Source of the DNA: a virus
Direction: 5' to 3' (one strand)
Virus record (IMG/VR): IMGVR_UViG_3300000101_000007
Location: 29,648 to 56,354 of that record
DNA length: 26,707 nt
Positions 78-24,859 of this stretch are shown piece after piece. The notes beneath the pieces were generated by a model. The model saw only the letters and a program-made list of their open reading frames with translations. It was not told the DNA's origin and did not search any database. Made by a program: the position numbers and the translations under genes. Positions within the stretch are counted from its first letter, which is position 1. Each line of letters opens with the position of its first letter.

Positions 78-1136
78 ATGCAAATATCGACAAATAATCA
101 TTGGGATCCTTTAGAAGAAATTATAGTTGGAATAGCCGATCATGCTCGTGTACCTACAGTAGATGTAAGCACAATGAACATGAGTTATACCAATTATAAC
201 ATTGAAGACATTAAGCCATTAGAAGGTGCATACCCAAACTGGTTAATCGATGAAGCTAATGAAGACCTACAAGGTGTTGCAGATGCACTTACTAGTTTAG
301 GTGTTAAAGTACATAGACCTAAAGCACTTGATCATAGTGTAAAGTACAGCACACCAGAATGGGAAACAACAGGTTGGTATACATGGTGTCCTAGAGACTT
401 ATTGTTACCACTAAACAATTTAATGATTGAAACACCTAGTGCATGTCGCTCACGTTTATTTGAAACTAGAGCATATCATGACATTTACTTAGAAGCCGTA
501 CGTGATGGTGTTGAGTGGATTGCTGCTCCTAAACCTATACTACCAGATGAAACATTTCAGTTTGAGGATATAGACGGCAAGCCAAGTTTACGTAATCTAG
601 AACCTATCTTTGATGCACCAAACTGTGTACGTTTAGGTAAAGACATACTATTTCAAATTAGTAATACTGGTAACCATTTAGGTATGCAGTGGTTAAAGAA
701 TACACTAGAACCTAGAGGATATAGAATACATGCTGCTGAACACGTTTATAGTTTTGCACACATGGATAGCACTATTGTTCCACTAGCACCTGGGAAAGTA
801 CTACTAAACAGTACAAGAGTAACCGCAGAAAACTGTCCTAAAGTATTTGATAAATGGGATAAGATTTATTTTGAAGATGTAAATGTTAATCCGTCAACAG
901 ATTCAGGACCAGGTAGTATTAGTCCTTGTAGTCCTTATATTGGCATGAACATACTAAGTGTAGATCCAACTACAGTTATTGTGGGAGATGATCAAACTAA
1001 TTTAATTCGTGTATTAGAAAAACAAAAATTTACTGTAGTTCCTGTAAAGATGCGTCATGCACAAACACTTAGTGGTGGCCTTCATTGTACTACTTTAGAT
1101 TTGCGTAGACGAGGAGAGCTAGAGGACTACACATGA
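78..1136 (+). CDS. Amidinotransferase (glycine/inosamine amidinotransferase family)
   Basis: This is a 352-residue member of the pentein-fold amidinotransferases, which move an amidino group from arginine to an amine acceptor such as glycine. Three hallmarks of arginine:glycine amidinotransferase are visible: PIFDAPNCVR with the catalytic Asp179, FAHMDST with catalytic His228 and Asp230, and GGLHCTTLDLRRRG with the nucleophile Cys337. The segment PRDLLLPLNNLMIETPSACR matches the substrate-loop region of the family. The open frame runs back to 24 (GTG), but ATG 78 is preferred: it follows the previous stop by 8 nt and puts the family N-terminus (HWDPLEEIIVG) at residue 8. Its stop overlaps the next start (ATGA at 1133), so the two are probably co-translated. 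The acceptor amine is unknown; modification of a surface or small metabolite is inference. Confidence 0.9.
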   Translation: MQISTNNHWDPLEEIIVGIADHARVPTVDVSTMNMSYTNYNIEDIKPLEGAYPNWLIDEANEDLQGVADALTSLGVKVHRPKALDHSVKYSTPEWETTGWYTWCPRDLLLPLNNLMIETPSACRSRLFETRAYHDIYLEAVRDGVEWIAAPKPILPDETFQFEDIDGKPSLRNLEPIFDAPNCVRLGKDILFQISNTGNHLGMQWLKNTLEPRGYRIHAAEHVYSFAHMDSTIVPLAPGKVLLNSTRVTAENCPKVFDKWDKIYFEDVNVNPSTDSGPGSISPCSPYIGMNILSVDPTTVIVGDDQTNLIRVLEKQKFTVVPVKMRHAQTLSGGLHCTTLDLRRRGELEDYT

Positions 1137-2578
1137 TAACCCGTGACATTATTAGTAATAATTTTAAAGGTATAAACCTACGCGGTACTAAGGAGCCTTT
1201 TACAAAATCACAATTAGTAGACAATATAGACTTATGGAAATATGTTTTATGTGAGCAGTGTAAAGCAAAGCATGGAGAATCTATTCTTATAGGATTGCAA
1301 AGATTAGACTTAGATTACATAGCTGCAATTTTTGCTGCTTCTGAACTAGGGTTAAAAATTGTAATAGTGGACTACAATAGGAAAGATGACTTTACTGATT
1401 TAGAATACTTTGATGCTAAAACAAAAATATTATCTCCTATAGATATTTTCTTACATGATCTTCTACCTGAATGGTTTGACGAATCTCAGAAGGCATTTGC
1501 TAAGTTTAACTTCTTTTCAACTTGCGCTCGTAGAACATATGTTACATCAAGAGATTTAAATTTTGAGATTACTGACAAAGAAGCGTTTAACAAAATTAAA
1601 GAAATACGTCCAGCACCTACAGATATCTTAATGAGATGTACAAGTAGTGGTACTACTGGAACGCCTAAAATTGTTGAACACACGCATGAATTTTTATACA
1701 AGGTTTCACAACGTAATGCAGATAAATTTTCATCAGGTAACTGTTTACATATTAGAAACTTAAATCATGGAAGTAGTGTAGCAGTGTATCTATTCCCTGC
1801 ATTGATTAGTAACGGTATCACTTCGCACCTGTTTTACGACCTTGATGAAAACGAACCATTTGATAATTTTATTGATGAGATCAAAGAATACAGTGATACT
1901 TTAAGTTTTGTTAACTTTCCGTATCCGTTTATGATTGATGTGTTTATTACAACTAGTTTAGCAAAGAACATTTCATGGCCAACCCTAAGTGTACAAACAC
2001 TGTCGTACATACAAGACTCTGCTAAAGATGCAATCAAAGATCAAATTTTTAAATCTATTACAAGTATCTTTGGTAGTAACGAAACAAGTGGTCCTGTATT
2101 TGAATGTACTATAACTAAAGACACTACTGAACAAAGTTCTTCATGCTTTACTAAGTTAGACAATTTTTACAATATATCTTTAGATAAAGAAGGTTTAATA
2201 CATGTAGGGATGCCAGTATATAATAATACTATAGTAACCAACGACATATTCAAACTAGAAGATAACTTGTATACACATTGCGGAAGAAAAGACATTGTTA
2301 AAATTAACGGAGAGATAATAGATTACGCAGATATTAACAAGTTTAATAGTAAGTTTTTAGATACCTACTTAGTTATAGATAGTGTTACTAACAGCATCTA
2401 TCTTGCATCTTGGAGTAAACTTAATGTTGAAGCATACAATGAGATTACAGCATTTTTTGATAATAACTATAAAAATGTAGTAATAAATAAGTTAGCAACA
2501 TTAAGTAAACAAAAGTTTCTATCAGGCATAAAGGTAGATAACGAATTGATAAGGGAATATTTTAGAAATCATGTTTAA
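1133..2578 (+). CDS. ANL-superfamily adenylate-forming enzyme (AMP-binding)
   Basis: A 481-residue enzyme of the acyl-CoA synthetase/NRPS adenylation superfamily, which activates a carboxylate as an acyl-adenylate. The phosphate-binding loop TSSGTTGTPK is at residues 170-179, the A5-like motif FGSNETSG surrounds residue 314, and the A8 hinge appears as GRKDIVKINGEIIDYADIN. The last residues (GIKVDNELIREYF) resemble the A10 region, whose Lys completes catalysis. It is at the short end of the family, mainly in the N-terminal lobe. It starts inside the stop of the amidinotransferase gene (ATGA), which suggests that the two act in sequence, perhaps activating a carboxylate and carrying a guanidino group. 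The acid substrate cannot be read from sequence, and no carrier protein is seen nearby. Confidence 0.85.
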   Translation: MITRDIISNNFKGINLRGTKEPFTKSQLVDNIDLWKYVLCEQCKAKHGESILIGLQRLDLDYIAAIFAASELGLKIVIVDYNRKDDFTDLEYFDAKTKILSPIDIFLHDLLPEWFDESQKAFAKFNFFSTCARRTYVTSRDLNFEITDKEAFNKIKEIRPAPTDILMRCTSSGTTGTPKIVEHTHEFLYKVSQRNADKFSSGNCLHIRNLNHGSSVAVYLFPALISNGITSHLFYDLDENEPFDNFIDEIKEYSDTLSFVNFPYPFMIDVFITTSLAKNISWPTLSVQTLSYIQDSAKDAIKDQIFKSITSIFGSNETSGPVFECTITKDTTEQSSSCFTKLDNFYNISLDKEGLIHVGMPVYNNTIVTNDIFKLEDNLYTHCGRKDIVKINGEIIDYADINKFNSKFLDTYLVIDSVTNSIYLASWSKLNVEAYNEITAFFDNNYKNVVINKLATLSKQKFLSGIKVDNELIREYFRNHV

Positions 2579-2813: not shown

Positions 2814-3304
2814 TAAAGTTTGAAAAGACTATATCAGACTTCTGGTCTCAAGATCTTAAAGATTTTAAGTTTAGTGTGCTGTCACCATTGACACAAGCAC
2901 AAAGAGAATACTGGACACACCCTAATTACAATAACGAACTAAACAAGTTAGAACAAGCATTTGATAATGACCTTCCAGACTACTGGCCAAGGTTTATGGA
3001 AGAGATGAATATTAAAGAAGGAACAGTTTCCTGGACAAACGTTGCTCCAGGCAATGTTGTACCTGTGCATACTGATAAGTTTTATAAATTAAGAAAAAAG
3101 TATAATGTAACAGAAGATGAATGCATACGTTATCTAATGTTCTTGCAAGATTGGGAACTAGGACAAATGGTAGAGTTTGAAGAAAAAATTCTTACTAGAT
3201 GGAAAAAGGGTGATGTATGGAGTTTTGGAATTAATGATTCACACTGGGCTGCTAATGGCACTCAGGATAACTTTATAACCTGTCAAATTAACACTTTTAA
3301 TTAG
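2810..3304 (+). CDS. 2-oxoglutarate/Fe(II) oxygenase-like protein (cupin fold)
   Basis: A 164-residue protein with a likely iron triad: HTD at residues 87-89 (HxD) and His145 in INDSHWAAN. Between them are RYLMFLQDWELGQ and WKKGDVWSF, like the core strands of aspartyl-hydroxylase-type oxygenases. The Arg usually found 10-11 residues after the distal His to bind 2-oxoglutarate is not obvious, so cosubstrate use is uncertain. It starts in the stop of the DUF6356-like gene (ATGA) and is the last gene of the plus-strand operon. Its stop overlaps head-on with the stop of the fibre gene on the other strand (3301-3304). Hydroxylation of the product made by the upstream enzymes is an inference. Confidence 0.75.
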   Translation: MIKFEKTISDFWSQDLKDFKFSVLSPLTQAQREYWTHPNYNNELNKLEQAFDNDLPDYWPRFMEEMNIKEGTVSWTNVAPGNVVPVHTDKFYKLRKKYNVTEDECIRYLMFLQDWELGQMVEFEEKILTRWKKGDVWSFGINDSHWAANGTQDNFITCQINTFN

Positions 3305-4794
3305 TGTAAGTCTACCCAACTACTACCAGCATACGCTTGTATCTTAGAAGTATCTGTATTATAAATCATTTGACCGTTAACTCCTGTAAGAGCATTACGT
3401 TGTGCTGTTGTATATGATTTAAGTTGAGCTGGTCCACCGAATACTGTTTCTTGTTTTGAGTTGAACGCAACTGCTAGTGCAAGTGTACCTGCTGCATTTG
3501 CTGTTATGATTTCATACTTACCTGGAATTTGGTTAGCTGCAATAGCACCATCTGCTGTAGCATCAAGTACAACTGATAACCCCAATGAAGATTCACTAGC
3601 AGCACCATAAGCAGAGTAAACGTGTCTAAAAATACCATCGCCATTTTGAATAGCCGCTGGACTTGCTTTTGTACCACGAGTTTTAACCATTACTTGTGCG
3701 GCTGCGTCTGCACCTGTGTTGTATGCTTTGAATGTGAATAGATCGTAATCGTCTTCACCGTCGCCTTGTGTTTCAAGTAACAAGCCGCCTGTAGCTAAAT
3801 TTTTATTAAGAATAATATTACCTGTATCAACAGTATCATTATTTACATTACCTTTGATTTGACTTGCAATGGCATCAACAAGTATAGTTGAGTCATCACC
3901 TGACACGCTACCTCTTAGGTCACCTGTAAGTGTTTCTGCTGTAACTGTTTTAGTGATAGAGTTAACAATAGCAGTACTGTCGTCACTGAATAAACTTCCT
4001 TTTACATCACCATTAAATGCTGCTGCTGTAACTGACGTTGCTGTAACTGATGTTGCACTAACTGAGTTGTTTGAAGTATTAATAATTGTGCTAGAGTCAT
4101 CACCAATGATGTTTGCGTTTACGTTTGCTCCCGGTTCTGCAACACCGCCAAGTGTTAATCCACCTACTGTTGAACCTGCTGGAAGTTCAATAGCGCCACC
4201 GTTGTTTGTAATATTTGCACCATTAACTGATACCGCAGTTTTAACATACACATTATTAAACATTGTGCCAGGTGCGCCAACGTTATGTGTGTCTGCTGTT
4301 GCAGGTACAATGTGATCTTTAACTGTGCCAGATAAGTTAATTGCACCTTCTACTGCATTTACAAGTATAGTTGAGTCATCGCCAAATACAGAACCATTGT
4401 AGTCTGCTACAATTTTACCTTCAACAGTCAAATTGCCAGTAATTGTGCTGTTTCCAGTTATGTTTAATCCACCACTGCCAGTAATGTTAAATGAGTTTAA
4501 GTCTAAATTCTGTAGCAACTGCGGTTGATTTGCTGTTGCGGAAATTGTGTTGCCCCCGTCGTTATATGTAAAACTAATACCTGTGTTAGGGCCTGCTACA
4601 AGCATATTAGCAACTGCGTCTTGTGCATCTTCTGCATTAAAACCAGTTACTGCTTCTAAATCTTTTAGTAAGGTTGTTCCGTCACCTACGTACAGCTTTG
4701 CTTGGTCTGTAACCCAAACTAACTCACCTGCTTGTGGCGCAGTTGCGAGCGTTTGACGTTCAGCATCGGTTCCTCTTCTTATCTGTAATGGCAT
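3301..4794 (-). CDS. Tail-fibre-like structural protein
   Basis: A 497-residue probable virion fibre. The N-terminus (MPLQIRRGTDAERQTL, then GELVWVTDQAKLYVGDGTT) is the domain common at the head of phage fibres and tropism determinants. The middle carries at least four copies of a unit built around G-[ST]-x-x-x-DDST-x-[IL]-V-[ND]-[AS]-[IV], typical of fibres of T4-like marine phages. The C-terminus has the collar-like motif YTTAQRNALTGVNGQMIYNT ending in SSWVDLH. Composition is rich in Gly, Asn, Thr and Ala, as in beta-helical shafts. The start has an upstream GGAGT ribosome site and a late-type promoter at 4835-4842, so it is probably expressed late and separately from the gene to its right. 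Which receptor it binds cannot be told. Confidence 0.8.
   Translation of the reverse strand: MPLQIRRGTDAERQTLATAPQAGELVWVTDQAKLYVGDGTTLLKDLEAVTGFNAEDAQDAVANMLVAGPNTGISFTYNDGGNTISATANQPQLLQNLDLNSFNITGSGGLNITGNSTITGNLTVEGKIVADYNGSVFGDDSTILVNAVEGAINLSGTVKDHIVPATADTHNVGAPGTMFNNVYVKTAVSVNGANITNNGGAIELPAGSTVGGLTLGGVAEPGANVNANIIGDDSSTIINTSNNSVSATSVTATSVTAAAFNGDVKGSLFSDDSTAIVNSITKTVTAETLTGDLRGSVSGDDSTILVDAIASQIKGNVNNDTVDTGNIILNKNLATGGLLLETQGDGEDDYDLFTFKAYNTGADAAAQVMVKTRGTKASPAAIQNGDGIFRHVYSAYGAASESSLGLSVVLDATADGAIAANQIPGKYEIITANAAGTLALAVAFNSKQETVFGGPAQLKSYTTAQRNALTGVNGQMIYNTDTSKIQAYAGSSWVDLH
3878..4380. repeat. 20-bp direct repeat within the fibre gene
   Basis: The 20-mer acaagtatagttgagtcatc occurs identically at 3878-3897 and 4361-4380. 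It encodes the DDSTILV core of two fibre repeat units. Identity at the DNA level suggests recent duplication, recombination or conversion between units. Confidence 0.85.
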
Positions 4795-12577: not shown

Positions 12578-12856
12578 ATGAACTTTTTAACATTTGTAAG
12601 CGAGGTTGGTTTTCCAATTGCAGGCGCAATAGCCGCAGGCTTTTTTGTGTTCACTACGCTAAAATTTATTTTGGCTAGTGTTACAGGAAGTGTATGTGGT
12701 CTGCAGAATATGATATCAGCATTAGATAATCGGGTACAAACAATGAATAACGATCTTGTTAAGATTGATGCATTAATGAGCTACGCTCTAAATGTAAAAC
12801 CTAACGTAGATCGTATAGCTGCCAATGAAGGCAAAGAAGACGCAAGAAGAGACTAA
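12578..12856 (+). CDS. Small membrane-anchored protein, related to the one at 13458
   Basis: A 92-residue protein with an N-terminal membrane helix (VGFPIAGAIAAGFFVFTTLKFIL) and a helical, coiled-coil-like domain (NMISALDNRVQTMNNDLVKIDALMSYAL). The arrangement, including the GFPI motif at the helix start and a [LM]-x-N-D-[LM]-[IV] helix after it, is shared with the 106-residue protein at 13458. Holin-like or spanin-like roles are conceivable for such single-helix proteins, but nothing in the sequence proves either. Confidence 0.65.
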   Translation: MNFLTFVSEVGFPIAGAIAAGFFVFTTLKFILASVTGSVCGLQNMISALDNRVQTMNNDLVKIDALMSYALNVKPNVDRIAANEGKEDARRD

Positions 12857-13457: not shown

Positions 13458-13778
13458 ATGACAGCAGAACTAGCAGCAGCGATAAAAGATTTTGGCTTTC
13501 CTATAGTAGCTGCGATGGGTCTTGGATATTTTGTCTACTACGTGTGGAGATGGGTAACAACTGAGATTAAACCTGTGCTAAGTCAAGCCTCAGGTAAATT
13601 AGTTGGGTTGATAGATCGTATTCGCATGTTGGACAACGACATGATTAGACTTAATCAAAAGTTAAACATGGTATTAGAATTCAAAGATCAGTACGAAAAA
13701 GTTACAGGGAAAAAACTTGATCTTGACGTTGATGAAATTGAAGAAGCTGTAAAGTCAGCAGCGAAAAAGAAGAAATAG
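13458..13778 (+). CDS. Small membrane-anchored helical protein, related to the one at 12578
   Basis: A 106-residue protein. Residues 10-34 (DFGFPIVAAMGLGYFVYYVWRWV) form one membrane helix. Then comes a helical region (LVGLIDRIRMLDNDMIRLNQ) and a Lys/Glu-rich tail ending in KKKK. The GFPI helix and the L-D-N-D-M-I-R-L heptad echo the protein at 12578, pointing to an old duplication. Topology is probably N-out with a cytoplasmic coiled coil. Function unknown; lysis or membrane-associated virion assembly are possible. Confidence 0.65.
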   Translation: MTAELAAAIKDFGFPIVAAMGLGYFVYYVWRWVTTEIKPVLSQASGKLVGLIDRIRMLDNDMIRLNQKLNMVLEFKDQYEKVTGKKLDLDVDEIEEAVKSAAKKKK

Positions 13779-14195: not shown

Positions 14196-16256
14196 TTATT
14201 TGGTCGTTGCAATGAAAACTCCGTTCCAGTCCTCAGGTAAGTCTTGTGTCATCATATACTCACAACGTTCAATCCACATATTATAGTAGCCTTCCATTTT
14301 ACCATCAAAGTTGCGTTCTATCTTTCTAGCAATCCATATTGCTTCTTCAAACTTTTGTGCTTGATATGCTCTATGCATATCTTCGTGGTAACGTTTTGTT
14401 GTGCGCCATGCTGGCTTAGGATTATCTAGTACTGTCCAAATGCCAATTCCAACTGTTTTACCTTTAACTGCTAAATCGTCTATTTTTAAATAAAAGAAAT
14501 CATCTTTAGTTTGTTGATATGTAGCATCGCCTATTAGTAAGACACATCCGTACTCTTTACATTTACTTTCAATTCTTGCTGCTGTGCTGACTGAGTCTCC
14601 CAGTACATCATACGAATGTCTTTGTGTGCTACCCATTTCTCCAAGATAGCCAAGTCCTGTATTGATGCCTGCTCCCATGCCAACAGGCGGTCTTCCTTCT
14701 GATGTAATTTTATCATTAAACTTCTCCACTGCTTTTAACATATCTAGTCCACATTGTACAGCCGTCTTAGGATGTTGTGGATCATCTATTGGTGCATTGT
14801 GTACATGCATACTTGCATCGCCAATATACTTAATAACCATACCGTCTGCATCAAGTATTGGTTGCGTAATAGCATCCATGTAGCCATTCATAATTTTGGT
14901 TAGTCCTTTTACATCATCTCCAAAGCTCTCTCCTAGAGGTGTAAATCCACGTAAATCTGAGAAGCAAATACTTACTTCTTTTTTCATACCGTCTTTAATC
15001 AGTGCAGGATTTTCTTGTAGCATACGCACTACTGTAGGTGATGCATAACCTGCAAATTGCTTCTTAATCTTTTGTTTTTCAAAGAATTCTACTACAAAAC
15101 GGTTAAATGTAGCATGGAAACCTACTGCTGTGCCTACTAACAGTATCCAGCTCACATCCCATAGCTGTAAGTGCCCCTTAAACAGCGTGTAAGCGCCGTA
15201 CAAGCACGTTGCGTACATAACAAGTACCAATGCACCCACAACGTAATACGGTGCTAAAACCGCCGCAATTATAAGAATAAGCCCAATTGCGATACTAGCA
15301 GCGTACTCTACAAATGTAGCATAATCAAAACGTACAATAGTATCTCCGTTCATAATAGTTTGTAATGCTGTTGCAGCCATTACGTGACTATACTGCTCTC
15401 CGTTTGGAGTAGCAACGATTGGTGCTAGTCCTTCTGCTGTGATTCCTATTATTACAATCTTGCCTTCCATTCCCCAAAAGAAATCATCTTCTGAAGCACT
15501 GTAAACATCAAAATCTTTGTTCCAACGTAACCAAATTCTACCATTTGGATCTGTTGAAATAGTTTCGTATGCAGGCACACGCATAGCAATGATGCCGCCC
15601 TCACCTGCTTTAACTTGATAACTAGGGTCGCCAACAGCAACACGTATAACTTCCATAGGAATACTTGGGTATACTTCGTCTCCAACACGCATTAGCAATG
15701 GTAAACGTCTTACAACACCATCTATCTCAGGTGCAGTATTGATTACACCAACTCCTGCTGCGTTGTTACCTAGTAACGGTATAGGACCTAACATACCTGG
15801 CCATTCAAATAGCCAAGGCATAGGATCACCTATTTTAGCAACACCTCTTGGTACTGCGTTTTTATTTGTTTGTGTTGTTCCTGTTTGTGCAATAACAACA
15901 CCATTATTAAGCAACATCTGTGCTAGTTCTGTATCGCCGCCCAGTCTATCGTTTTCAGAAAACAATATAGGCATAACAATAACACCAGCACCGTGAGCTC
16001 GTAAATTTTTAATAATATCTGCTAGTACATCACGCTTCCAAGGCCATTGTCCGTACTTTTCTATAGATGCTTCATCTATTTCTAGTATAGCAATGTCGCT
16101 GGATAGTGGTTCTACTGTGTCATAACTTTGAATAAGATCAAATGATTTGAGTCTTAAAGTCTCTTTTACATACGGGTCGTTGAAGCCTAGTATACTAATA
16201 ACTGCTAGAGTTAGAAGGGCTGTTGACCAATGTGTTAAGATCTTTGAAAGTTTCAT
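14196..16256 (-). CDS. CHASE2-domain class III adenylyl cyclase
   Basis: A 686-residue membrane receptor cyclase. Residues 11-24 are a membrane helix. About 40-310 form an extracytoplasmic CHASE2 sensor (IAILEIDEASIEKYGQWPW is its start motif). Three helices follow (about 319-338, 341-358, 368-384), then a class III catalytic domain at about 425-610. Metal ligands are Asp434 (CFSDLRGFTP) and Asp480 (KYIGD). Lys476 and Asp550 are the pair that selects ATP, and Arg561 is in VSTAARIE. The Asn normally four residues before that Arg is Ser557, which may lower activity. A helical, TPR-like tail ends the protein. CHASE2 cyclases often sit beside FecR genes in bacteria, and here a FecR gene is 2.5 kb upstream. 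It should make cAMP in the host inner membrane in response to a periplasmic signal. Confidence 0.9.
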   Translation of the reverse strand: MKLSKILTHWSTALLTLAVISILGFNDPYVKETLRLKSFDLIQSYDTVEPLSSDIAILEIDEASIEKYGQWPWKRDVLADIIKNLRAHGAGVIVMPILFSENDRLGGDTELAQMLLNNGVVIAQTGTTQTNKNAVPRGVAKIGDPMPWLFEWPGMLGPIPLLGNNAAGVGVINTAPEIDGVVRRLPLLMRVGDEVYPSIPMEVIRVAVGDPSYQVKAGEGGIIAMRVPAYETISTDPNGRIWLRWNKDFDVYSASEDDFFWGMEGKIVIIGITAEGLAPIVATPNGEQYSHVMAATALQTIMNGDTIVRFDYATFVEYAASIAIGLILIIAAVLAPYYVVGALVLVMYATCLYGAYTLFKGHLQLWDVSWILLVGTAVGFHATFNRFVVEFFEKQKIKKQFAGYASPTVVRMLQENPALIKDGMKKEVSICFSDLRGFTPLGESFGDDVKGLTKIMNGYMDAITQPILDADGMVIKYIGDASMHVHNAPIDDPQHPKTAVQCGLDMLKAVEKFNDKITSEGRPPVGMGAGINTGLGYLGEMGSTQRHSYDVLGDSVSTAARIESKCKEYGCVLLIGDATYQQTKDDFFYLKIDDLAVKGKTVGIGIWTVLDNPKPAWRTTKRYHEDMHRAYQAQKFEEAIWIARKIERNFDGKMEGYYNMWIERCEYMMTQDLPEDWNGVFIATTK

Positions 16257-16275: not shown

Positions 16276-16494
16276 TCAATGATCGTAAACGTAAGGTCCG
16301 TCTTTCATCTTCATAGGTTTGCAGTATGCAGTTATGCGATGTTCTGGAGGTACCATTGAGCTATAGCTGTAATTTCCGTACTGTCGTGGTATACGTTTAG
16401 CATAGTATTGACACACATCTATACTCCTAAAATACATAGGTGATGGCTGCTGTACGTCAGCTATTAATACTACTAGCATAAAAACATGTATCAA
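16276..16494 (-). CDS. Small secreted two-cysteine protein, TTG start
   Basis: A 72-residue protein whose hydrophobic start (MIHVFMLVVLIADVQQPSP) looks like a signal peptide, followed by FRSIDVCQYYAKRIPRQYG and RITAYCKPMKMKDG. The Cys...Cys-K-P layout matches the proteins at 8292 and 10360. The start is TTG 16494, which overlaps the previous stop (TTGA) and has AGGAG nine bases upstream; ATG 16479 is the alternative, with no ribosome site. It lies between the late operon at 17276 and the cyclase, so an exported partner of the CHASE2 sensor is possible but unsupported. Confidence 0.6.
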   Translation of the reverse strand: MIHVFMLVVLIADVQQPSPMYFRSIDVCQYYAKRIPRQYGNYSYSSMVPPEHRITAYCKPMKMKDGPYVYDH

Positions 16495-16793
16495 CGTATT
16501 AATCTCCTGTCGGTATTACGTCCTGGTCTTCTAATAGCGGGTTTCTTTTCTTCCTGAATAGGAGTGGTGGGCGGTTCTTTAGGTTTCTTTGCTTCTGCTC
16601 TAAGTTTAACTACTTCTCTTTGTTCAAGTTGTGCCTTAAACATGTGTATTACTTCAGGTGCTGATTCTGTTGAGCTTAAGAATATGTTTATTGCGCTCCA
16701 TGAATTACCCATGAATAGCAATTTTCCTGCTTTATAAAGTATACCTTTATTGTTATCATTTACAAAAACATAGTCTTTATAAACATACCTCAA
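16491..16793 (-). CDS. Hypothetical protein with basic, proline-rich tail
   Basis: A 100-residue protein. The first half (MRYVYKDYVFVNDNNKGILY, ... GNSWSAINIFLSS) looks like a small beta domain, then comes a charged helix (FKAQLEQREVVKLRAEAKK) and a disordered tail (PKEPPTTPIQEEKKPAIRRP, then GRNTDRRLIR). It directly follows the stop of the gene at 16794 and overlaps the next start by four bases. No family recognised. Confidence 0.6.
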   Translation of the reverse strand: MRYVYKDYVFVNDNNKGILYKAGKLLFMGNSWSAINIFLSSTESAPEVIHMFKAQLEQREVVKLRAEAKKPKEPPTTPIQEEKKPAIRRPGRNTDRRLIR

Positions 16794-17276
16794 CTATATT
16801 ACACCTTTCGCCTTTGCTGTTAATACTATTATAAAAATTAAAAATCCACCAACAGCTAAACATCCACCAGCTATAGCAATACCTTCTACTAACTTACGTC
16901 TACGTTCTTCTTGATCGTAAATTGCTTTTTGTCGTTTCTTTCTAATCTGACCTTCGGTTTGTAAAAGCTCTTCCCATGCACTTGGTCCTCTAGTAAATGA
17001 GATTATATTTTTTAACTCACTTCGCATATCTTCTGCTTTTTTCTTAGCTATAAAAATTTGCATAGCTTCTTCTTCAACTGAGCCTGCTTGAAACAGTTTT
17101 TTAAATAGAGGCGGGTTGCTATTGTACTCTTCTGCTTTTTTAATATCTGAAACAGCACCCATCCAACGACCTAGATCGCCTGCCATGGATTCTATTTCGC
17201 GACCAGCTGCGAAGCCGGCCTTAATCGTGTTAAATGCGCCGGTCGCCATTGCGACGGCTGAGATGGGATCTATCAA
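16794..17276 (-). CDS. Membrane-tailed phage protein of unknown function
   Basis: A 160-residue protein with an N-terminal amphipathic part (DPISAVAMATGAFNTIKAGF), a helical middle (GDLGRWMGAVSDIKKAEEY, PPLFKKLFQAGSVEEEAMQI, SAWEELLQTEGQIRKKRQ) and a C-terminal membrane helix at about 133-153. I recall closely similar proteins in T4-like cyanophages, always of unknown function. The start is TTG 17276 with AGGAG eight bases upstream, and a late-type promoter is at 17306-17313. A late membrane role is suggested by its promoter and topology. Confidence 0.75.
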   Translation of the reverse strand: MIDPISAVAMATGAFNTIKAGFAAGREIESMAGDLGRWMGAVSDIKKAEEYNSNPPLFKKLFQAGSVEEEAMQIFIAKKKAEDMRSELKNIISFTRGPSAWEELLQTEGQIRKKRQKAIYDQEERRRKLVEGIAIAGGCLAVGGFLIFIIVLTAKAKGVI

Positions 17277-17320: not shown

Positions 17321-18775
17321 TTAGTTTTGGGTTACTGTGGTTGTGCCGCAACCATTAGCAGTATTACAATATTGTTGTATTGAATATACCTGATTTGTTG
17401 AACTATCTTGTGTAAGGTTAAGTGTTGCACTGTGGCCAGTCATGTTAATACTTGCATTATGATTGCCTGTGCCGTCTTGTGTTATAGCAACTGTTTGATC
17501 ACTACCAACAGCAATTTCTGCATAGTGCGAACCTGCACCTTGTTGATATAAGTCTATATCGTTGTCGTCACCTTGTACACTTAGAAATGCTTTCTTATCT
17601 CCGTCATTGAGTTGACTTGTTAAAACATTATTGTTACTACCATCTATGTCAACACCAACATAATGCCCGTTTGTGCCTACTCCGTCATTATGTTTTTGTG
17701 TAACATTAAATGTATTGCCGTTACCAACAATGTCAAACTCTAATCTATTATCGTCAGCACCCGCTGAACCACCTTGATCAATTACAGTAGTATTTGAATG
17801 TCCTACCATATCAAACAATATAACATTGTCGTCACCTCTTTGAGTCATTGTGTTGTTATTGTTGTTTCCTGTAATATCAGCATTTACTATGTTGCTAGTT
17901 GTTGAGCCTACACCTGCTATAAGATTATCTTCACCGTCTTGTGTGATGTTAAGTGTATTGTCGTTACCAACTTGACTGATATAAATTCCACTACCTGTTA
18001 CTGCTCTTGATGTTGCTACCTGTGTAGTCTGTGCGTTGCTTATACTTGAAGTGTATGTTGATGTTGTATACAATCCTTCTTCTACCATTATTGATAACAA
18101 CATATCATCCATGTTACTTGCATATGAGCGAGTTGTAAGAAACTGTCCGTAACCAAATGTTACATAAACTGCACCACCATTTGAACCATAATCCCATTTG
18201 TGCCAAATTGAAATATTATTATTAAGAGATGAGTTGGCAGCAACAGTTGTACCACCAGTCACATTGTACATATATTTGTCTGAACCTGGCAAAGTATTTT
18301 CACTTGCTGTGCTACTTGAAAAGTCGCCTTTTCTTGTTGAATAATAACAATTAGCACATCCGCCGTTGTTAGGCCCTTGTGTAAAACTACCTACACTCAT
18401 CTTACTTTCGATCAGTGCTTCTATACTGCTATTTCTGTTGGTTGCGCCGTTAGATCCTACTATAAGTAATTTGCCGCCAGCTGATACATAATTGTCATAG
18501 TTTGTTTTACAAGTACTACCACAGTTTGACTCACCTGTTATGTCAATCACAAGATCTTTACCTGATATATCAGATGAACTAACTGACCCACTTGTGCTAC
18601 TTGATACAGTATAACCTAAATCTTCAAGTTGGCTTTTTAAATTTGCGTATTGAGAACTTGTTTCAGCATTCCCACTATTTTTATAATATATAAACGCTGT
18701 GTCAGCCCATGCTGGCGTTGTGACTGATATTAAAAAGAGGAATAATAAACTATTTCTGAATGATGTCAATATCAT
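17321..18775 (-). CDS. Large chimeric curlin-repeat protein
   Basis: A 484-residue exported protein. Residues 1-24 are a Sec signal peptide ending in PAWA. Residues 25-250 form a separate domain (AFIYYKNSGN, LKSQLEDLGYTV, DLVIDITGES, GGKLLIVGSNG) with the alternating strand-helix look of a Rossmann/GATase-like fold and four cysteines (CGSTC, CANC). From about 262 to the end are curlin-type repeats: IYISQVGNDNTLNITQDGED, NNTMTQRGDDN, NTFNVTQKHNDG, IDLYQQGAG, VAITQDGTGN, LNLTQDSSTN, TTTVTQN. Curlins are amyloid subunits with N/Q-x5-Q-type strands exported through CsgG. The start overlaps the FecR gene by 26 nt, with AGGAG nine bases before. It may be an amyloid-anchored effector or nucleator; the N-terminal fold is a tentative reading. 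Confidence 0.8.
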   Translation of the reverse strand: MILTSFRNSLLFLFLISVTTPAWADTAFIYYKNSGNAETSSQYANLKSQLEDLGYTVSSSTSGSVSSSDISGKDLVIDITGESNCGSTCKTNYDNYVSAGGKLLIVGSNGATNRNSSIEALIESKMSVGSFTQGPNNGGCANCYYSTRKGDFSSSTASENTLPGSDKYMYNVTGGTTVAANSSLNNNISIWHKWDYGSNGGAVYVTFGYGQFLTTRSYASNMDDMLLSIMVEEGLYTTSTYTSSISNAQTTQVATSRAVTGSGIYISQVGNDNTLNITQDGEDNLIAGVGSTTSNIVNADITGNNNNNTMTQRGDDNVILFDMVGHSNTTVIDQGGSAGADDNRLEFDIVGNGNTFNVTQKHNDGVGTNGHYVGVDIDGSNNNVLTSQLNDGDKKAFLSVQGDDNDIDLYQQGAGSHYAEIAVGSDQTVAITQDGTGNHNASINMTGHSATLNLTQDSSTNQVYSIQQYCNTANGCGTTTVTQN

Positions 18776-19886
18776 TACTACCGTCTCCTAGTTTATAATC
18801 TCTAAATTCAAAATCTGATTGTTGTAAATTAATGTTATATCCATTCTGTTGATCTAGTACTAGTTCTACATTCATACCTGTACCACTATCTCGTCTAAAT
18901 ACCCAATTAGGATTTTGATTATACAGTTCGATGCCTGTAACAGGATCTTTACCATATTTCTGTTTTGCTTTTGATTTAGATAATTGACCACTTAGTAAAG
19001 TTGATAACATCTGATTAAGTTGATCAAGTACGTTAACAAGGAAGTTTTGATCTAAGTAGTTTGCATCTAACTCTGTCTGCCAAACATCTTTTGATTCCTC
19101 ATCAAGTTGGTTTATATCTAATCCGTCGTACTCTAAGAAGTCAAACCCTAAGAAGTCTGCTAAGTCTTTAGCACGGTCTTTTTCTAACTGATACTCAACT
19201 TCTTTAGGCTTTCGAATGATTAACAAGTTATCAATAAGCGATTCGTTAATATCAAGTATAATAGGTTTTAAAGGATCTCTTTCTGGTACGTCTACAACAG
19301 TTGCTTGGAATGCTTTGTTTAATATAACTGATCCGGCATCTGAGCTTACTTCAATTTCTCCTACAACACAGATACGCTTAACACCAACAGCAGAACAACT
19401 TGGTAAAAGAATAATAGTTGAACTACCTGTTTCGTCAACGGTCATAGTAAAGTCAGTACCACGAACTCCGATAGTAGCAGTCGGAGTAGTAATCTTTATA
19501 TCTTGTCTACTGTTCTTTGCTATCTGTCCTGATGCATATCTAATAGTTCCAAAAGATGCTTTGAGGGAAAGTTTACCTTTTGAAGTATTAGGATCATATA
19601 CAAACTCGTCAATAACTAATTTACTATTTTGAGTTACGTCAACTCTAGTTTCATCTACAAACTCTATAGCAGTTTTACCTTGACCTGTACGAACGGTATC
19701 ATAACTTACTATTGAACTTCCTGTTTCTGAATCTAGTTTATCACCTGTTGATCTTTCAATTATAGTGTTACCAACCTGCTGAGTTACTTTTCCGATATCT
19801 GCTTGTGCAGCCATAACGGAATTGTTAATGGTTAGCATAACCATTAGACCTGCTACAAGAGCCAATCTGTCCAGCAATCGGATCAT
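18750..19886 (-). CDS. FecR-domain exported protein with curlin-like C-terminus
   Basis: A 378-residue protein with a signal peptide (residues 1-28, ending AAQA) and a FecR domain at about 45-200: YDTVRTGQGKTAIEFVDETR, SKLVIDEFVYD, LKASFGTIRYASGQIAK and the signature TPTATIGVRGTDFTM. FecR domains act in the periplasm as ligand or signal-sensing modules. The middle (200-330) is charged and helical. The last residues contain YNINLQQSDF and SNDIDIIQK, like curlin strands, so it might join the amyloid. It sits between two curlin genes, with a 5-nt gap on one side and a 26-nt overlap on the other. It has no helix to contact an inner-membrane anti-sigma system. The nearby CHASE2 cyclase is the likely signalling partner. 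Confidence 0.85.
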   Translation of the reverse strand: MIRLLDRLALVAGLMVMLTINNSVMAAQADIGKVTQQVGNTIIERSTGDKLDSETGSSIVSYDTVRTGQGKTAIEFVDETRVDVTQNSKLVIDEFVYDPNTSKGKLSLKASFGTIRYASGQIAKNSRQDIKITTPTATIGVRGTDFTMTVDETGSSTIILLPSCSAVGVKRICVVGEIEVSSDAGSVILNKAFQATVVDVPERDPLKPIILDINESLIDNLLIIRKPKEVEYQLEKDRAKDLADFLGFDFLEYDGLDINQLDEESKDVWQTELDANYLDQNFLVNVLDQLNQMLSTLLSGQLSKSKAKQKYGKDPVTGIELYNQNPNWVFRRDSGTGMNVELVLDQQNGYNINLQQSDFEFRDYKLGDGSNDIDIIQK

Positions 19887-19891
19887 GTAAA

Positions 19892-20656
19892 TTAATCCGT
19901 CTGTGTAATATCTATAGTTGCGTCATTACCTACTGTGGTAAGATTTATAACTTTGTCTTCAACACCTGACTGATTGATGTTCACAATAGAACCACCACCT
20001 TTCATATCAACTACCATACTGTGACCATTAACATCACCGCCACCAGATTGTGTAATTGCAACTGTGTTAGCAACACCGCTTTCAACTGATGAGCTTGATG
20101 ATGTAGTACCGCCAGCGCCAACACCTGATAGTGCTGTTGAGCCATCATTACCCATGTCAAAGTTTAAATCAGCGTTTGCTGCATTAAGAGTAAAAGTTAG
20201 TGTGTCTTGATTACCATTATTATCTAGATCAATTGTACCCACAAAGTTCTGTGCATCTGCTGATCCGCCAATTGTTGCTGTAATATCAAATTGGCTACCA
20301 ACAGCATCTATACTTAATGATACAGTTTCACAGTTTACACCGTTTGTATCACAATCTAAATCAACTGTGTTAGTGTTACCAGTTAAGTTGATGTTACCAG
20401 TATAGGTGTTACCATTAATGGTAGTTTCAACAATGTTGGCGTCTCCTGTTTGAACAATTGAAAACGTCATGTTGTTTCCGGTTAAAGCCACACCAGTTGT
20501 TGATGTACCTATTATGTTATTAGTTCCGTCTTGTGTTATGTCCAAGTCTAAGTCATTACCAGATTGCTGTATGTATATGTCATTAGCAAACACTGGAGAT
20601 ATCAACCCCAAACTTAAAACAAAAAGACTACTTGCTACTATTGTCTTTATCTTCAT
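19892..20656 (-). CDS. Curlin-repeat protein (CsgA/CsgB-like)
   Basis: A 254-residue exported protein with a clear signal peptide (MKIKTIVASSLFVLSLGLIS, then PVFA before NDIY). The mature start, NDIYIQQSGNDLDLDITQDG, is a typical double curlin repeat. More repeat-like strands follow: FSIVQTGDAN, INLTGNTNTVDL, VAITQSGGGD, VNINQSGVED, IDITQTD. The middle (100-185), with only two Cys and many Gly, Ser and Asp, is longer than in CsgA (about 150 residues in E. coli), so it is not a simple orthologue. The gene starts inside csgG (28-nt overlap, GGAGCG before the ATG). It is the expected export substrate of the adjacent CsgG. Confidence 0.85.
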   Translation of the reverse strand: MKIKTIVASSLFVLSLGLISPVFANDIYIQQSGNDLDLDITQDGTNNIIGTSTTGVALTGNNMTFSIVQTGDANIVETTINGNTYTGNINLTGNTNTVDLDCDTNGVNCETVSLSIDAVGSQFDITATIGGSADAQNFVGTIDLDNNGNQDTLTFTLNAANADLNFDMGNDGSTALSGVGAGGTTSSSSSVESGVANTVAITQSGGGDVNGHSMVVDMKGGGSIVNINQSGVEDKVINLTTVGNDATIDITQTD

Positions 20657-21659
20657 CTTCGCTCCCTTGGTCGTCTATTTCGTCAACCAATTTTTTAATT
20701 AATGGATCGTTATGCCAACACATATTATCTGCGTCACAATAGTAACTCTTTACACCTGGATACTGTTTGTTAAACTCTTCCTCTGACATTTTAACTATAG
20801 CATCATGTCTTTCGTGTATTGTCGGACGCGACTCCGGTATCAACATACTCTCTAGTTCTTCCCTCTCGAACTTCCACAGTTTCTCTTTCTCACCTTTCTT
20901 TATCAACTCAACTACGGCTGCTTCAATTGCTGTACGAACTGCATAGTTGGTTGGCTCATTTACTGCTGCGCCTACTTCTATTTCAAGTGCCTTTGTGCCT
21001 ACATCTAGGAAACGAAATACATCGCCTCCGCTACTGTAACTTGCAATTTTCTTTTCAGTTGCTACAGTTAGGAGTACTTCTCCTGTCTGTGTACTAATAA
21101 GTCTCATTGCAACAGTAACTTGATCTGTTCTATAAGAAGTTGAACTGCCAATGCCAAAATATCTAGCACCTACACCTCCACTTTCCATATTAGAATCGTA
21201 GCCTACTACGCCACCTTCTAATATTAGACCTGCAAAGAGAAGTGGTTTTAAAGATGTAGGATCATTTTCGTAAACATCTCTAGTTGATCTTATCAATTGT
21301 CTCTCTTTAACTAGATTGTCTAATCCTACACGTTCAATAACTGTAAACCACGTTCCTCCACCGACTTCTTTTAAGGCATTAATAACCCATACCTCAGCAC
21401 CTTGAGTAACCGCACTACTGAGCTGACTAAAATTGTCATTAGGCTTTCGCTGCCCTGTTTTGTCTAGAAAACTGTAAATTGCAATTGTTATTTTTGGTCC
21501 ATCAATAGCTGGCACGGTCTCCAATACACTTTGGTATGGACTTTCCGCCCTAACGGGTGGGGTCCAATCCTTCTTTGTAAAGGTGGCCGCACATCCTGTC
21601 ATTGCTATAGCCAGGACCACAAATAACAAACTTCTAAATAGTCTTTTCAATTCTGTCAT
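20628..21659 (-). CDS. csgG: CsgG, outer-membrane curli secretion channel lipoprotein
   Basis: A 343-residue protein with strong similarity to CsgG, the nine-subunit pore that exports curlins. The lipobox AMTGC places lipidated Cys23. Family motifs follow: ITIAIYSFLDKTGQRKP, WFTVIERVGLDNLVKERQLI, ILEGGVVGYDSNMESGGVGA then RYFGIG, and TGEVLLTV. The pore constriction of E. coli CsgG uses Tyr, Asn and Phe. Here Asn76 and Phe77 are kept, but the loop is two residues shorter and lacks the Tyr. A tail of about 65 residues beyond the E. coli end includes PGVKSYYCDADNMCW and an acidic end. The ATG shares one base with the csgF stop (TAATG). Confidence 0.95.
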   Translation of the reverse strand: MTELKRLFRSLLFVVLAIAMTGCAATFTKKDWTPPVRAESPYQSVLETVPAIDGPKITIAIYSFLDKTGQRKPNDNFSQLSSAVTQGAEVWVINALKEVGGGTWFTVIERVGLDNLVKERQLIRSTRDVYENDPTSLKPLLFAGLILEGGVVGYDSNMESGGVGARYFGIGSSTSYRTDQVTVAMRLISTQTGEVLLTVATEKKIASYSSGGDVFRFLDVGTKALEIEVGAAVNEPTNYAVRTAIEAAVVELIKKGEKEKLWKFEREELESMLIPESRPTIHERHDAIVKMSEEEFNKQYPGVKSYYCDADNMCWHNDPLIKKLVDEIDDQGSEDEDKDNSSK

Positions 21660-22114
21660 TAAAATCCAAAACCTGTCAAAGGCACAGTAATCGTAGTAAC
21701 AGTTCCGTCTTCTTCGGTAATCGTGATGCTAATAGTATCTGTAGTAATATCTTTTACCCAGTATATTATAGCGCCTTCGATTTCAGCTGTTCCGCTATTG
21801 GCTCCTGTATCATCGAACATACCGTCAACTAATTGCTTTGATAATTGTGCATAGATTCTACTCTCAACGTTGTTAAGAAACTTCGCTAAGTTTGTAGACT
21901 CTGCTTCACGCTTTTCTTTCGCAGCTTTGGCTTCAGCCTTCTCCTCAATATCTTTTTTACGAGTAAACTGTAATTGTTCAATACTCAAGACATGGCTGGA
22001 ATACCCTTTACCACTGAAAGATGGATTTTTAAACTGAAAAACTTCATCACCCGCAACGGCAGGTGCTGTAGCTAATAAGCCCAGAATGATAGCTATAGAA
22101 ATTACATTTTTCAT
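21659..22114 (-). CDS. csgF: CsgF, curli assembly factor
   Basis: A 151-residue exported protein. The signal peptide ends at AVA (residue 21). The mature N-terminus GDEVFQFKNPSFSGKG matches that of CsgF, the segment that plugs into the CsgG pore and forms its second constriction. A charged helix (about 52-74, KKDIEEKAEAKAAKEKREAE) replaces the region of E. coli CsgF that is rich in Asn and Ser, and the C-terminus (ITITEEDGTVTTITVPLTG) is the usual beta end. First gene of the curli operon, with AAGGAG before the ATG and a late-type motif at 22146-22153. In the family it holds the nucleator at the cell surface. Confidence 0.92.
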   Translation of the reverse strand: MKNVISIAIILGLLATAPAVAGDEVFQFKNPSFSGKGYSSHVLSIEQLQFTRKKDIEEKAEAKAAKEKREAESTNLAKFLNNVESRIYAQLSKQLVDGMFDDTGANSGTAEIEGAIIYWVKDITTDTISITITEEDGTVTTITVPLTGFGF

Positions 22115-22145: not shown

Positions 22146-22153
22146 TATTTATT
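22146..22153 (-). promoter_or_regulatory. T4-type late promoter motif before csgF
   Basis: AATAAATA on the minus strand gives a leader of about 32 bases with AAGGAG before the csgF ATG at 22114. A second match, GATAAATA, is at 22183-22190. Either would make the curli operon a late transcript. Confidence 0.5.
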
Positions 22154-22196
22154 ATTCACAGCAAAGGCAACATCTACGTACATATTTATCAAACAG

Positions 22197-22214
22197 GTGT
22201 AAAAATTTTTACAC
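22197..22214. promoter_or_regulatory. 18-bp perfect palindrome in the csgF/Fis-like divergent region
   Basis: GTGTAAAAATTTTTACAC is exactly its own reverse complement. It lies 83 bases from the csgF ATG and 82 bases from the ATG of the Fis-like gene, that is, at the midpoint. A symmetric operator for a dimeric regulator is the likely use. It has no GC stem or one-sided T-run for a terminator. Confidence 0.55.
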
Positions 22215-22257: not shown

Positions 22258-22265
22258 AATAAATA
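22258..22265 (+). promoter_or_regulatory. T4-type late promoter motif before the Fis-like gene
   Basis: AATAAATA followed by ACATG on the plus strand, with a leader of about 30 bases and AAGGGA before the ATG at 22296. It mirrors the motif in front of csgF, so both divergent genes may be late. Confidence 0.5.
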
Positions 22266-22295: not shown

Positions 22296-22538
22296 ATGAG
22301 TAGGGAATTATCTGAACAGGATGCAATGTGGGAGTTATTAGAAACAAACTTTCCTAGTAACAAAGACCACAATTTAGTAATTAACTTACCTAACGAAATA
22401 GCAGAACTTGAAAAAACTAAACTTGTTGAAGTTTTAGATTTTCACGATTGGAATAAATCAAGAGCAGCCAAAGATTTAGGCATAGGCCGAACAAATCTAA
22501 TTGCTAAAATAAAAAAATATGAATTGGTTCAGAATTAA
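22296..22538 (+). CDS. Fis-type helix-turn-helix DNA-binding protein
   Basis: An 80-residue protein whose C-terminal half (LVEVLDFHDWNKSRAAKDLG, then IGRTNLIAKIKKYEL) is a Fis/NtrC-type HTH_8: the W-N-[KR]-S-x-A-A-x-x-L-G-I-x-R-x-x-L pattern is exact. The N-terminus is a short acidic region without other domains. It is the only plus-strand gene between 14157 and the right end, divergent from csgF. Fis-type proteins bind as dimers to AT-rich palindromes, and an 18-bp palindrome lies between the two genes. Control of the curli operon is the obvious hypothesis. The stop overlaps the convergent gene by four bases. Confidence 0.85.
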   Translation: MSRELSEQDAMWELLETNFPSNKDHNLVINLPNEIAELEKTKLVEVLDFHDWNKSRAAKDLGIGRTNLIAKIKKYELVQN

Positions 22539-23619: not shown

Positions 23620-23627
23620 TATTTATC
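23620..23627 (-). promoter_or_regulatory. Late-promoter-like motif directly before the gene at 23614
   Basis: GATAAATA, then five bases, then ATG 23614: the same spacing as before the cyclase gene. It overlaps the end of the bilin reductase gene. No clear ribosome site is present, fitting a leaderless late mRNA, though chance is possible. Confidence 0.35.
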
Positions 23628-24321
23628 CAAGTTTGGGAAATAACATATCTGTGCAGAACTTGTCTACATCAGCTTCGTTAAGTCCTAGGCTTTTCATAGT
23701 GCGTGGAGTGTGTGGGTTTTGTTGCTGATTATGACAATAGTAGTCTTGTGAAGCTTGTACTAATGCAGTATCTCCTTCACCTTTAGTAAGGCCTACTTCA
23801 GCAAAGTAAGTGTGTAAATTATCTATTGCAAGATCAATAATAGCAACAGCTTCTTCTTCAGTGCTTACATTACCGGCAGCAATCATACTTGGACTAAAAA
23901 TATTTTGAGCCCATTCAGGTAGTTCACGTTTCTTACTTGGTATAAAGTCTGCTACTGCTTCTGCATATCCTTGTATCATAGGATGATTAGGATCACTACT
24001 AGCACTTACATCGTGGAATGCACCAGTCATCTTTCTTTTACCTGCAATAACATCAAAGCCGTATATAGGTGCTGGGTTATCTAATGTTGGAAAAATACAT
24101 ACATGCATCATCCACAGACCTTTACTATCTCTAGCATCAACTACATCAATATGCGCTCTACGAATTTCATCGTTATGCCACACACGGTTGATCCAACTAC
24201 CGTCTGGTTTATTAAAATAGTCAAGTCCTGGTTCTGAAAATTCTTTTGCTTTATCGTCAAAGATATCTATAATTTCATTCTGACAGTCAATTAGTCTATC
24301 CCAAATAACACTGTTACTCAC
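23623..24321 (-). CDS. pcyX: Phage ferredoxin-dependent bilin reductase, PcyX type
   Basis: A 232-residue member of the ferredoxin-dependent bilin reductases, closest to the PcyA/PcyX branch. MHVCIFPTLDNPAPIYGFDV (residues 72-91) is the family core with His73 and Asp90, equivalent to the His88 and Asp105 that bind the bilin in PcyA. RRAHIDV has Asp59 where PcyA has catalytic Glu76. QASQDYYCHNQQQNP and VDKFCTDMLFPKL are the C-terminal signatures. PcyX, known from uncultured oceanic phages, reduces biliverdin to phycoerythrobilin with four electrons from ferredoxin. The start lies eight bases inside the heme oxygenase gene, which makes its substrate. The purpose in a non-photosynthetic host is unknown. 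Confidence 0.88.
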   Translation of the reverse strand: MSNSVIWDRLIDCQNEIIDIFDDKAKEFSEPGLDYFNKPDGSWINRVWHNDEIRRAHIDVVDARDSKGLWMMHVCIFPTLDNPAPIYGFDVIAGKRKMTGAFHDVSASSDPNHPMIQGYAEAVADFIPSKKRELPEWAQNIFSPSMIAAGNVSTEEEAVAIIDLAIDNLHTYFAEVGLTKGEGDTALVQASQDYYCHNQQQNPHTPRTMKSLGLNEADVDKFCTDMLFPKLG

Positions 24322-24859
24322 TATGATGCTCCATCAACTCTTTAAATAATTCAGTAGCAAAATCAAAGCAAACTTTTGCTTCGTCTGCCATGTTGTCATT
24401 ACATTTTGCTCTAATCTTATCTTTATAATCGTTGATGTCAATGTCTCCAAACTTATACATATCTCCGTTACCCGGTACACGTTTTGCAATCATTTGTCCA
24501 CCACTTAGATCTCCCATGTGTCTAACATACACGTGAGCCATTAATCTGTTAGGATCGTCCATGATATCTTTTAAGTACATTACATACTTGTGAGTAGTTT
24601 TTAGTGTAGGTGGTCTATCTTCTCTTTTCCATAGTTCTAAGAAGTCTGACATAATGCTCTTTGAACGTAATAGTTCAGGTACATCATCAAGTAGACCGTG
24701 CTGTTGAGCCATTAATTCTAAGAGCTCATAAGCGGGAAATTGGTTCCAAAGATATAAGGCGTAAAACTCTGGATCAATCTTGCCAGAGAACATAACCTTT
24801 ACGAACTGTTGTCGTTCTGCGTTAGTATGGTTTTCTTTGGTTAATTCTTTTAAACTCAT
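24314..24859 (-). CDS. hemO: Heme oxygenase
   Basis: A 181-residue HO-1-type heme oxygenase that opens heme to biliverdin, CO and Fe(II). The proximal His11 is in KENHTNAERQQF near the N-terminus, and the distal helix is YVRHMGDLSGGQ (residues 111-122) with the flexible GDLSGG. It is shorter than most HO-1 proteins (about 200-240), with a trimmed C-terminus, as in other phage versions. AGGAGT lies nine to ten bases before the ATG. It is coupled to pcyX by an 8-nt overlap, giving a complete heme-to-bilin route. It could also free iron from host heme. Confidence 0.92.
   Translation of the reverse strand: MSLKELTKENHTNAERQQFVKVMFSGKIDPEFYALYLWNQFPAYELLELMAQQHGLLDDVPELLRSKSIMSDFLELWKREDRPPTLKTTHKYVMYLKDIMDDPNRLMAHVYVRHMGDLSGGQMIAKRVPGNGDMYKFGDIDINDYKDKIRAKCNDNMADEAKVCFDFATELFKELMEHHSE

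Follow-up and report, generated by a model that had tools for sequence, protein, structure and literature searches.

An ocean-phage curli operon with an exchangeable curlin head and a predicted adjoining regulator

A curli (type VIII secretion) operon was identified in the window, a 26,707-nucleotide stretch covering positions 29,648 to 56,354 of the 107,186-base (107-kb) IMG/VR virus record IMGVR_UViG_3300000101_000007. It was best explained, at a probability of about 0.55, as a late-expressed phage curli export system that would display the N-terminal head of its second curlin on infected cells, with adhesion as the most likely purpose; a head-bearing adhesion fibre was the best of several readings, at about even odds. 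The operon adds one more member to a system already in print, the full cluster having been described in 2022. New here, relative to the accessible portions of the published accounts, are the exchange of the curlin 2 head, the pairing of an HTH_8 gene with a palindrome, and a late-promoter-like box beside that palindrome. The literature searched, as far as its accessible text extends, contained no mention of the exchangeable head, the HTH_8-palindrome pair or the late box, and a literature search found no paper on a PA14 domain joined to a curlin repeat.

The operon runs from 22114 to 17321 on the minus strand in the order csgF, csgG, curlin 1, fecR, curlin 2. The frames are tightly packed, and since the genes abut or overlap they are consistent with one operon; the gene content, coordinates and order given in the preliminary description were right. 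CsgF (151 aa; 21659..22114, minus strand) has a signal peptide and matched Pfam CsgF at 7.6e-17. Its FQFKNPSFSG motif after the signal peptide was aligned with the N-terminal peptide FQFRNPNFGG of E. coli CsgF, and the PDB alignment to 6l7a_J was weak (E 0.37). CsgG (343 aa; 20628..21659, minus strand) is an outer-membrane lipoprotein channel with the lipobox MTGC (Pfam 1.7e-50), residues 12-267 of which matched the solved E. coli CsgG (PDB 3x2r, E 2.3e-49). A charged C-terminal extension of about 75 aa with two cysteines (CDADNMC; 20628-20858, minus strand) is shared with two related loci (L005, the closest relative, and L006) and is absent in the cultured pelagiphage HTVC008M. Curlin 1 (254 aa; 19892..20656, minus strand) is a secreted curlin-repeat protein (Pfam Curlin_rpt 2.2e-5). 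It is constant among relatives, with complete copies of about 227-262 aa across 87 loci.

Profile searches for CsgF, CsgG, FecR and both curlins all gave Pfam matches above the curated cut-offs. Curlin-type motifs numbered 4 and 5, against means of 0.2-0.3 in composition shuffles, and 0 of 5000 shuffles held as many; this motif was defined after the sequences had been viewed, so Pfam is the cleaner curlin test. The survey of gene order in related phages, covering 91 viral loci, showed csgF-csgG-fecR in every locus long enough to display it; in 87 loci csgG was followed immediately by a curlin gene. The operon is also syntenic with those of HTVC008M (KC465899) and the OM43 phage Melnitz (MZ577097). 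The identities and order of the genes are near certain. CsgE was not found in the record or in six related records by a search that detected CsgE in Vibrio, and no CsgC or CsgD was seen in the operon. The absence of CsgE from the window that the preliminary description had reported thus extends to the whole record. Its proposal of a self-contained export system was supported as to a channel accompanied by substrates, with the missing CsgE as a caveat on "self-contained"; CsgE is cited as dispensable for the curli phenotype in the available text of one report (PMC7029224). Functional curli export is likely.

A phage origin, also proposed in the preliminary description, was borne out by the deposit as a virus record, by its phage-type genes and by the synteny with two cultured phages. 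The record contains tRNAs and a tmRNA, encodes many phage-type enzymes, including an NrdA whose best match was pelagiphage Mosig (70% identity), and has an endolysin-type PHROG match away from the curli operon. Terminase_6N and DNA polymerase B gave no match in the record, and a plasmid search gave none. Matching the record to HTVC008M through core genes was dropped, as 0 of 18 HTVC008M core proteins were found, with csgG, fecR and cyclase controls working. A capsid search, run without a positive control, returned nothing. Because the virion hallmark genes sought were not found across 107 kb, the record looks like a piece of a larger phage genome. The operon also occurs in a 236-kb record (G208), which encodes a T4-like terminase, 36% identical to that of HTVC008M, and a B-family polymerase. 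The simplest reading of the 107-kb record is as a portion of a distant, large T4-like phage. A bacterial-chromosome origin of the operon is unlikely because of its synteny with the two cultured phages. Five contigs were rejected as bacterial donors: L033-L036, which sit in genome bins of SAR11, Rhodobacteraceae or Flavobacteriaceae, carry phage-like operons, and L078 is a phage contig with terminase, portal and endolysin.

CsgF and CsgG in pelagimyophages were first reported in 2020, according to the accessible text of PMC7029224, which agrees with the background given in the preliminary description. The whole cluster of CsgF, CsgG, curlins, FecR and cyclase was published in 2022 from pelagi-podo- and myophages (PMC9599517), so the novelty that had been claimed for the cassette did not stand. 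In the consulted portions of that paper, CsgE is reported absent from pelagiphage clusters generally, and the cluster is described as lacking CsgC and CsgD too and is recorded from 65 ocean stations and in metatranscriptomes. As far as the published cluster could be compared from that text, it shares the order csgF-csgG-curlin-FecR-curlin-cyclase with the window, whereas the window adds an alpha/beta curlin 2 head, an HTH_8 gene with palindrome, three short ORFs ahead of the cyclase and a longer CsgG. The podophage form as described there has a histidine kinase gene before csgF, in place of which the window has a divergent HTH_8 gene. HTVC008M and Melnitz have the same gene order as the window, with CsgG identities to it of 60% and 56% (matched part). 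Both lack the HTH_8 gene near csgF and the palindrome, unlike the window, and their curlin 2 carries a PA14 head in HTVC008M and none in Melnitz, against domain A in the window. E. coli curli (csgBAC/csgDEFG) has the CsgG channel, CsgF and curlin-repeat substrates in common with the window, in which FecR, a CHASE2 cyclase and a folded curlin 2 head are added, CsgE was not found, and CsgC and CsgD were not seen in the operon.

Curlin 2 (484 aa; 17321..18775, minus strand; Pfam Curlin_rpt 1.1e-10) consists of a signal peptide, an alpha/beta module (aa 25-240), a linker and curlin repeats (about aa 255-484). The module, here called domain A (about 215 aa; 18056..18703, minus strand), gave no match in Pfam and was modelled by AlphaFold2 as an alpha/beta fold with a moderate pLDDT of 72. 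Foldseek matches to the model were modest (TM up to 0.57) and comprised 5fms, the ThuA-like 4jqs and 4e5v, and the mannosidase 7bob; the nearest folds of the model were the IFT52 N-terminal, ThuA-like, flavodoxin and glycosidase-associated domains. The top BFVD fold match was a phage protein named autotransporter, another type of surface display. Among 49 distinct complete curlin 2 proteins from viral loci recovered by CsgG and by domain A, 13 carry domain A, 6 carry PA14 and 30 carry neither. PA14 exceeded the Pfam cut-off in the curlin 2 of L005 and of HTVC008M, and domain A sits in curlin 2 in all 39 viral loci that have it.

The head does not follow the rest of the operon. Between the window and L005, CsgG is 90%, FecR 85% and the curlin 2 repeats 75% identical, with unrelated heads; between the window and L026 the corresponding values are 60%, 56% and 44%, with heads 81% identical; and L026 and HTVC008M share 80% of the curlin 2 repeats, again with unrelated heads. 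At least 14 changes of head state were counted among 46 labelled rows on a CsgG tree, a quick one in which support was weak for 20 of its 68 inner branches. These comparisons indicate that the curlin 2 head is a module exchanged between phages. PA14 is common among sugar-binding adhesins. Binding of sugars by the heads is no more than suggested, because of the pLDDT of the domain A model and the modest fold matches.

The gene divergent from the operon (22296..22538, plus strand) encodes an 80-aa Fis-type DNA-binding protein (Pfam HTH_8 7.3e-12), predicted to be a local regulator of the curli operon. An operator candidate co-occurring with this gene, the palindrome GTGTAAAAATTTTTACAC (22197..22214), lies upstream of csgF and has the pattern GTGTAAAA-N2-TTTTACAC; no further copies with fewer than 3 mismatches were present in the 107-kb record. 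Under a stricter rule, the palindrome or a close variant preceded csgF in 17 of 18 loci with the HTH_8 gene and in 0 of 55 without it. The counts became 17/17 and 0/53 under a relaxed rule set after the sole exception (L140) had been seen. On the best tree the HTH_8 gene was gained or lost 8 times or more. Of the independent contrasts, however, just 2 fall on well supported branches, so that shared ancestry could account for part of the link. A scan of IMG/VR for the pattern gave 9 sites, of which 7 adjoin an HTH_8 gene; 5 of the 7 precede csgF and the other 2 another secreted-protein operon. The HTH_8 regulator probably binds the palindrome. TyrR-type regulators and boxes (TGTAAA-N6-TTTACA, PMC4374768) have a similar Fis-type HTH and TGTAAA/TTTACA arms, whereas the arms in the window are separated by 4 bases rather than 6 and HTH_8 is the sole Pfam match of the 80-aa protein. 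As a separate observation, the HTH_8 gene, palindrome and late-type box in L229 (10879-13030) and L230 (1-1037) precede the non-curli operon, which encodes secreted proteins of 180-200 aa followed by a large Ser/Thr-rich protein.

Just downstream of the palindrome is a T4-type late-promoter-like box, GATAAATA (22183..22190, minus strand), matching NATAAATA, the late promoter of cyanophage S-PM2 (PMC2984593). A second such box, AATAAATA (22146..22153, minus strand), lies 39 nt upstream of csgF, and the same AATAAATA box was seen before the HTH_8 gene (22258..22265, plus strand). In nearly all listed promoters the palindrome is about 0-8 bases from a TAAATA-type box. A copy of NATAAATA lay no more than 110 nt from csgF in 42% of loci, compared with 9% of shuffled sequences. 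In HTVC008M it stood before 8 of 20 structural and 1 of 17 replication-type genes, on hand-chosen gene lists. Late expression of the curli operon is likely because of this enrichment near csgF and before structural genes of HTVC008M.

FecR (378 aa; 18750..19886, minus strand) is a secreted FecR-domain protein (Pfam 1.6e-11; PHROG 37870, 7e-124) whose structure prediction was too poor for use (pLDDT 48). The FecR proteins share a conserved C-terminal N-x-I-x-I-x-Q stretch (GSNDIDIIQ) that is similar to a curlin half-repeat (GDDNDIDLYQ). Between curlin 2 and the cyclase are a 160-aa ORF with a C-terminal hydrophobic segment (16794..17276, minus strand; PHROG 32327), kept in L005, L012, L013 and L016, and ORFs of 100 aa (16491..16793) and 72 aa (16276..16494), both on the minus strand and at the same position in some relatives. 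The CHASE2 sensor adenylate/guanylate cyclase (686 aa; 14196..16256, minus strand) matched Pfam CHASE2 at 1.5e-43 and Guanylate_cyc at 2.9e-16. This gene, the HTH_8 gene with its palindrome and the curlin 2 head had been missed in the preliminary description. In the viral loci the cyclase usually lies downstream of curlin 2, and fecR directly before curlin 2. An alignment gave Ser (VSTAAR) in the cyclase of the window's clade against the usual Asn (VNLAAR) in L002, L008 and L026. Since Ser replaces the Asn of the VNxAAR motif, usually catalytic, the activity of this clade's cyclase is uncertain, and the enzyme may have little or no activity. In Nitrosomonas and in a beta-proteobacterium FecR likewise immediately precedes a CHASE2 protein, with no curli genes in view there. 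As a general bacterial rule the association is weak, FecR lying next upstream in just 6 of 24 CHASE2 loci, three of these hand-picked. A sensing pair of FecR and CHASE2 cyclase is plausible.

In the proposed mechanism, CsgG and CsgF would form an outer-membrane export pore. Curlin 1 would be the constant fibre subunit and curlin 2 a modular one whose exchangeable head, which may bind sugars, would sit on the fibre or at the cell surface; this head is ThuA/flavodoxin-like in the window, PA14 in other phages and missing in others. The system would most likely serve to attach infected cells to other cells, to particles or to glycans. Transcription would probably be late, from the T4-type box adjoining a palindrome bound by the phage's own Fis-type regulator, and FecR with the CHASE2 cyclase may be an envelope-sensing pair feeding cyclic-nucleotide signalling. 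Counting against this explanation are the absence of CsgE, the Ser at the usual catalytic Asn of the cyclase, and the lack of clumping in OM43 cells infected with Melnitz (PMC9004378); the curlin 2 of that phage is headless, however, which may explain that result. More tentatively, and as a doubtful rather than a favoured proposition, ocean phages may carry a late-switched adhesion platform, an amyloid fibre leaving through the phage's own curli pore, with swappable heads and a private regulator and operator. The heads would be swapped much as tail-fibre tips are and would decide what the infected cell sticks to.

The published proposals include sibling capture, superinfection defence and solute import (PMC9599517 and PMC7029224, in their accessible parts) and a lysis-timing pore in Melnitz (PMC9004378); pore, coat and aggregation, the roles listed in the preliminary description, were not told apart there. 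A repurposed pore, in which CsgGF would open the outer membrane to time lysis or to let solutes in, with the fibre proteins secondary, draws on pinholin/secretin or uptake ideas (PMC9004378 and the available text of PMC7029224). The absence of CsgE, the periplasmic gate in the E. coli system, would suit it, as would the late-promoter-like boxes at a lysis-stage role and the endolysin-type match elsewhere in the record. It was nevertheless judged improbable: the curlin gene after csgG is retained throughout the 87 loci, exchange of curlin 2 heads would be needless for a bare pore, and head swapping moderately favours a displayed fibre. The Melnitz paper states that fibre genes are lacking (PMC9004378). 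A Melnitz without curlins was rejected, as its curlin 2 passes the Pfam cut-off and its record lists two curlin-repeat genes (L003 12845-15639, plus strand), which also argues against the pore. An amyloid coat blocking superinfection by rival phages, or trapping them, was given equally small odds. Surface amyloid could mask receptors, head exchange could reflect an arms race with rivals, and the idea is already found in the consulted text of PMC9599517, but the late-type boxes suggest expression later than most exclusion would be needed. That the heads are enzymes or sensors, for example a hydrolase of ThuA type, or a sensor of some ligand that is linked to FecR and cyclase, would fit the ThuA-like and glycosidase-associated resemblances of the domain A model and the neighbouring fecR and cyclase genes, but is very unlikely, since PA14 replaces domain A in close relatives and many phages are headless, so that no single head activity is conserved.

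With the displayed adhesion fibre as the preferred reading, the curlin 2 heads point to where the purpose of ocean-phage curli operons should be sought. If they bind cells or glycans, infected cells would be sticky, and encounter rates and marine particle formation would be affected. The regulator-palindrome pair offers a simple handle on the timing and mode of operon activation.

Other genes of the record were noted. A ferredoxin-dependent bilin reductase adjoins a heme oxygenase (23623-24859, minus strand) in a hemO/pcyX-type cassette, known in marine phages (PMC11480375); the reductase is nearest to that of pelagiphage Mosig (51% identity). This match and that of NrdA were the observations considered for a possible SAR11 host. 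A protein with an Mtd N-terminal domain (3301-4794, minus strand) is likely of tail-fibre type, and a diversity-generating retroelement for it was rejected, reverse transcriptase being absent from the record. An AMP-binding (adenylating) enzyme (1133-2578, plus strand) lies alongside a PHROG 25854 protein. Past the cyclase, the genes at 12578-12856 and 13458-13778 (both plus strand) are homologues, at 50% and 44% identity, of two small HTVC008M genes that directly precede csgF there and are on the opposite strand in the window. At record positions 1-29,700 (L028, L029), 9 radical SAM proteins were found among 32 ORFs scanned, together with ThyX, DAHP synthase and PTPS-type genes.
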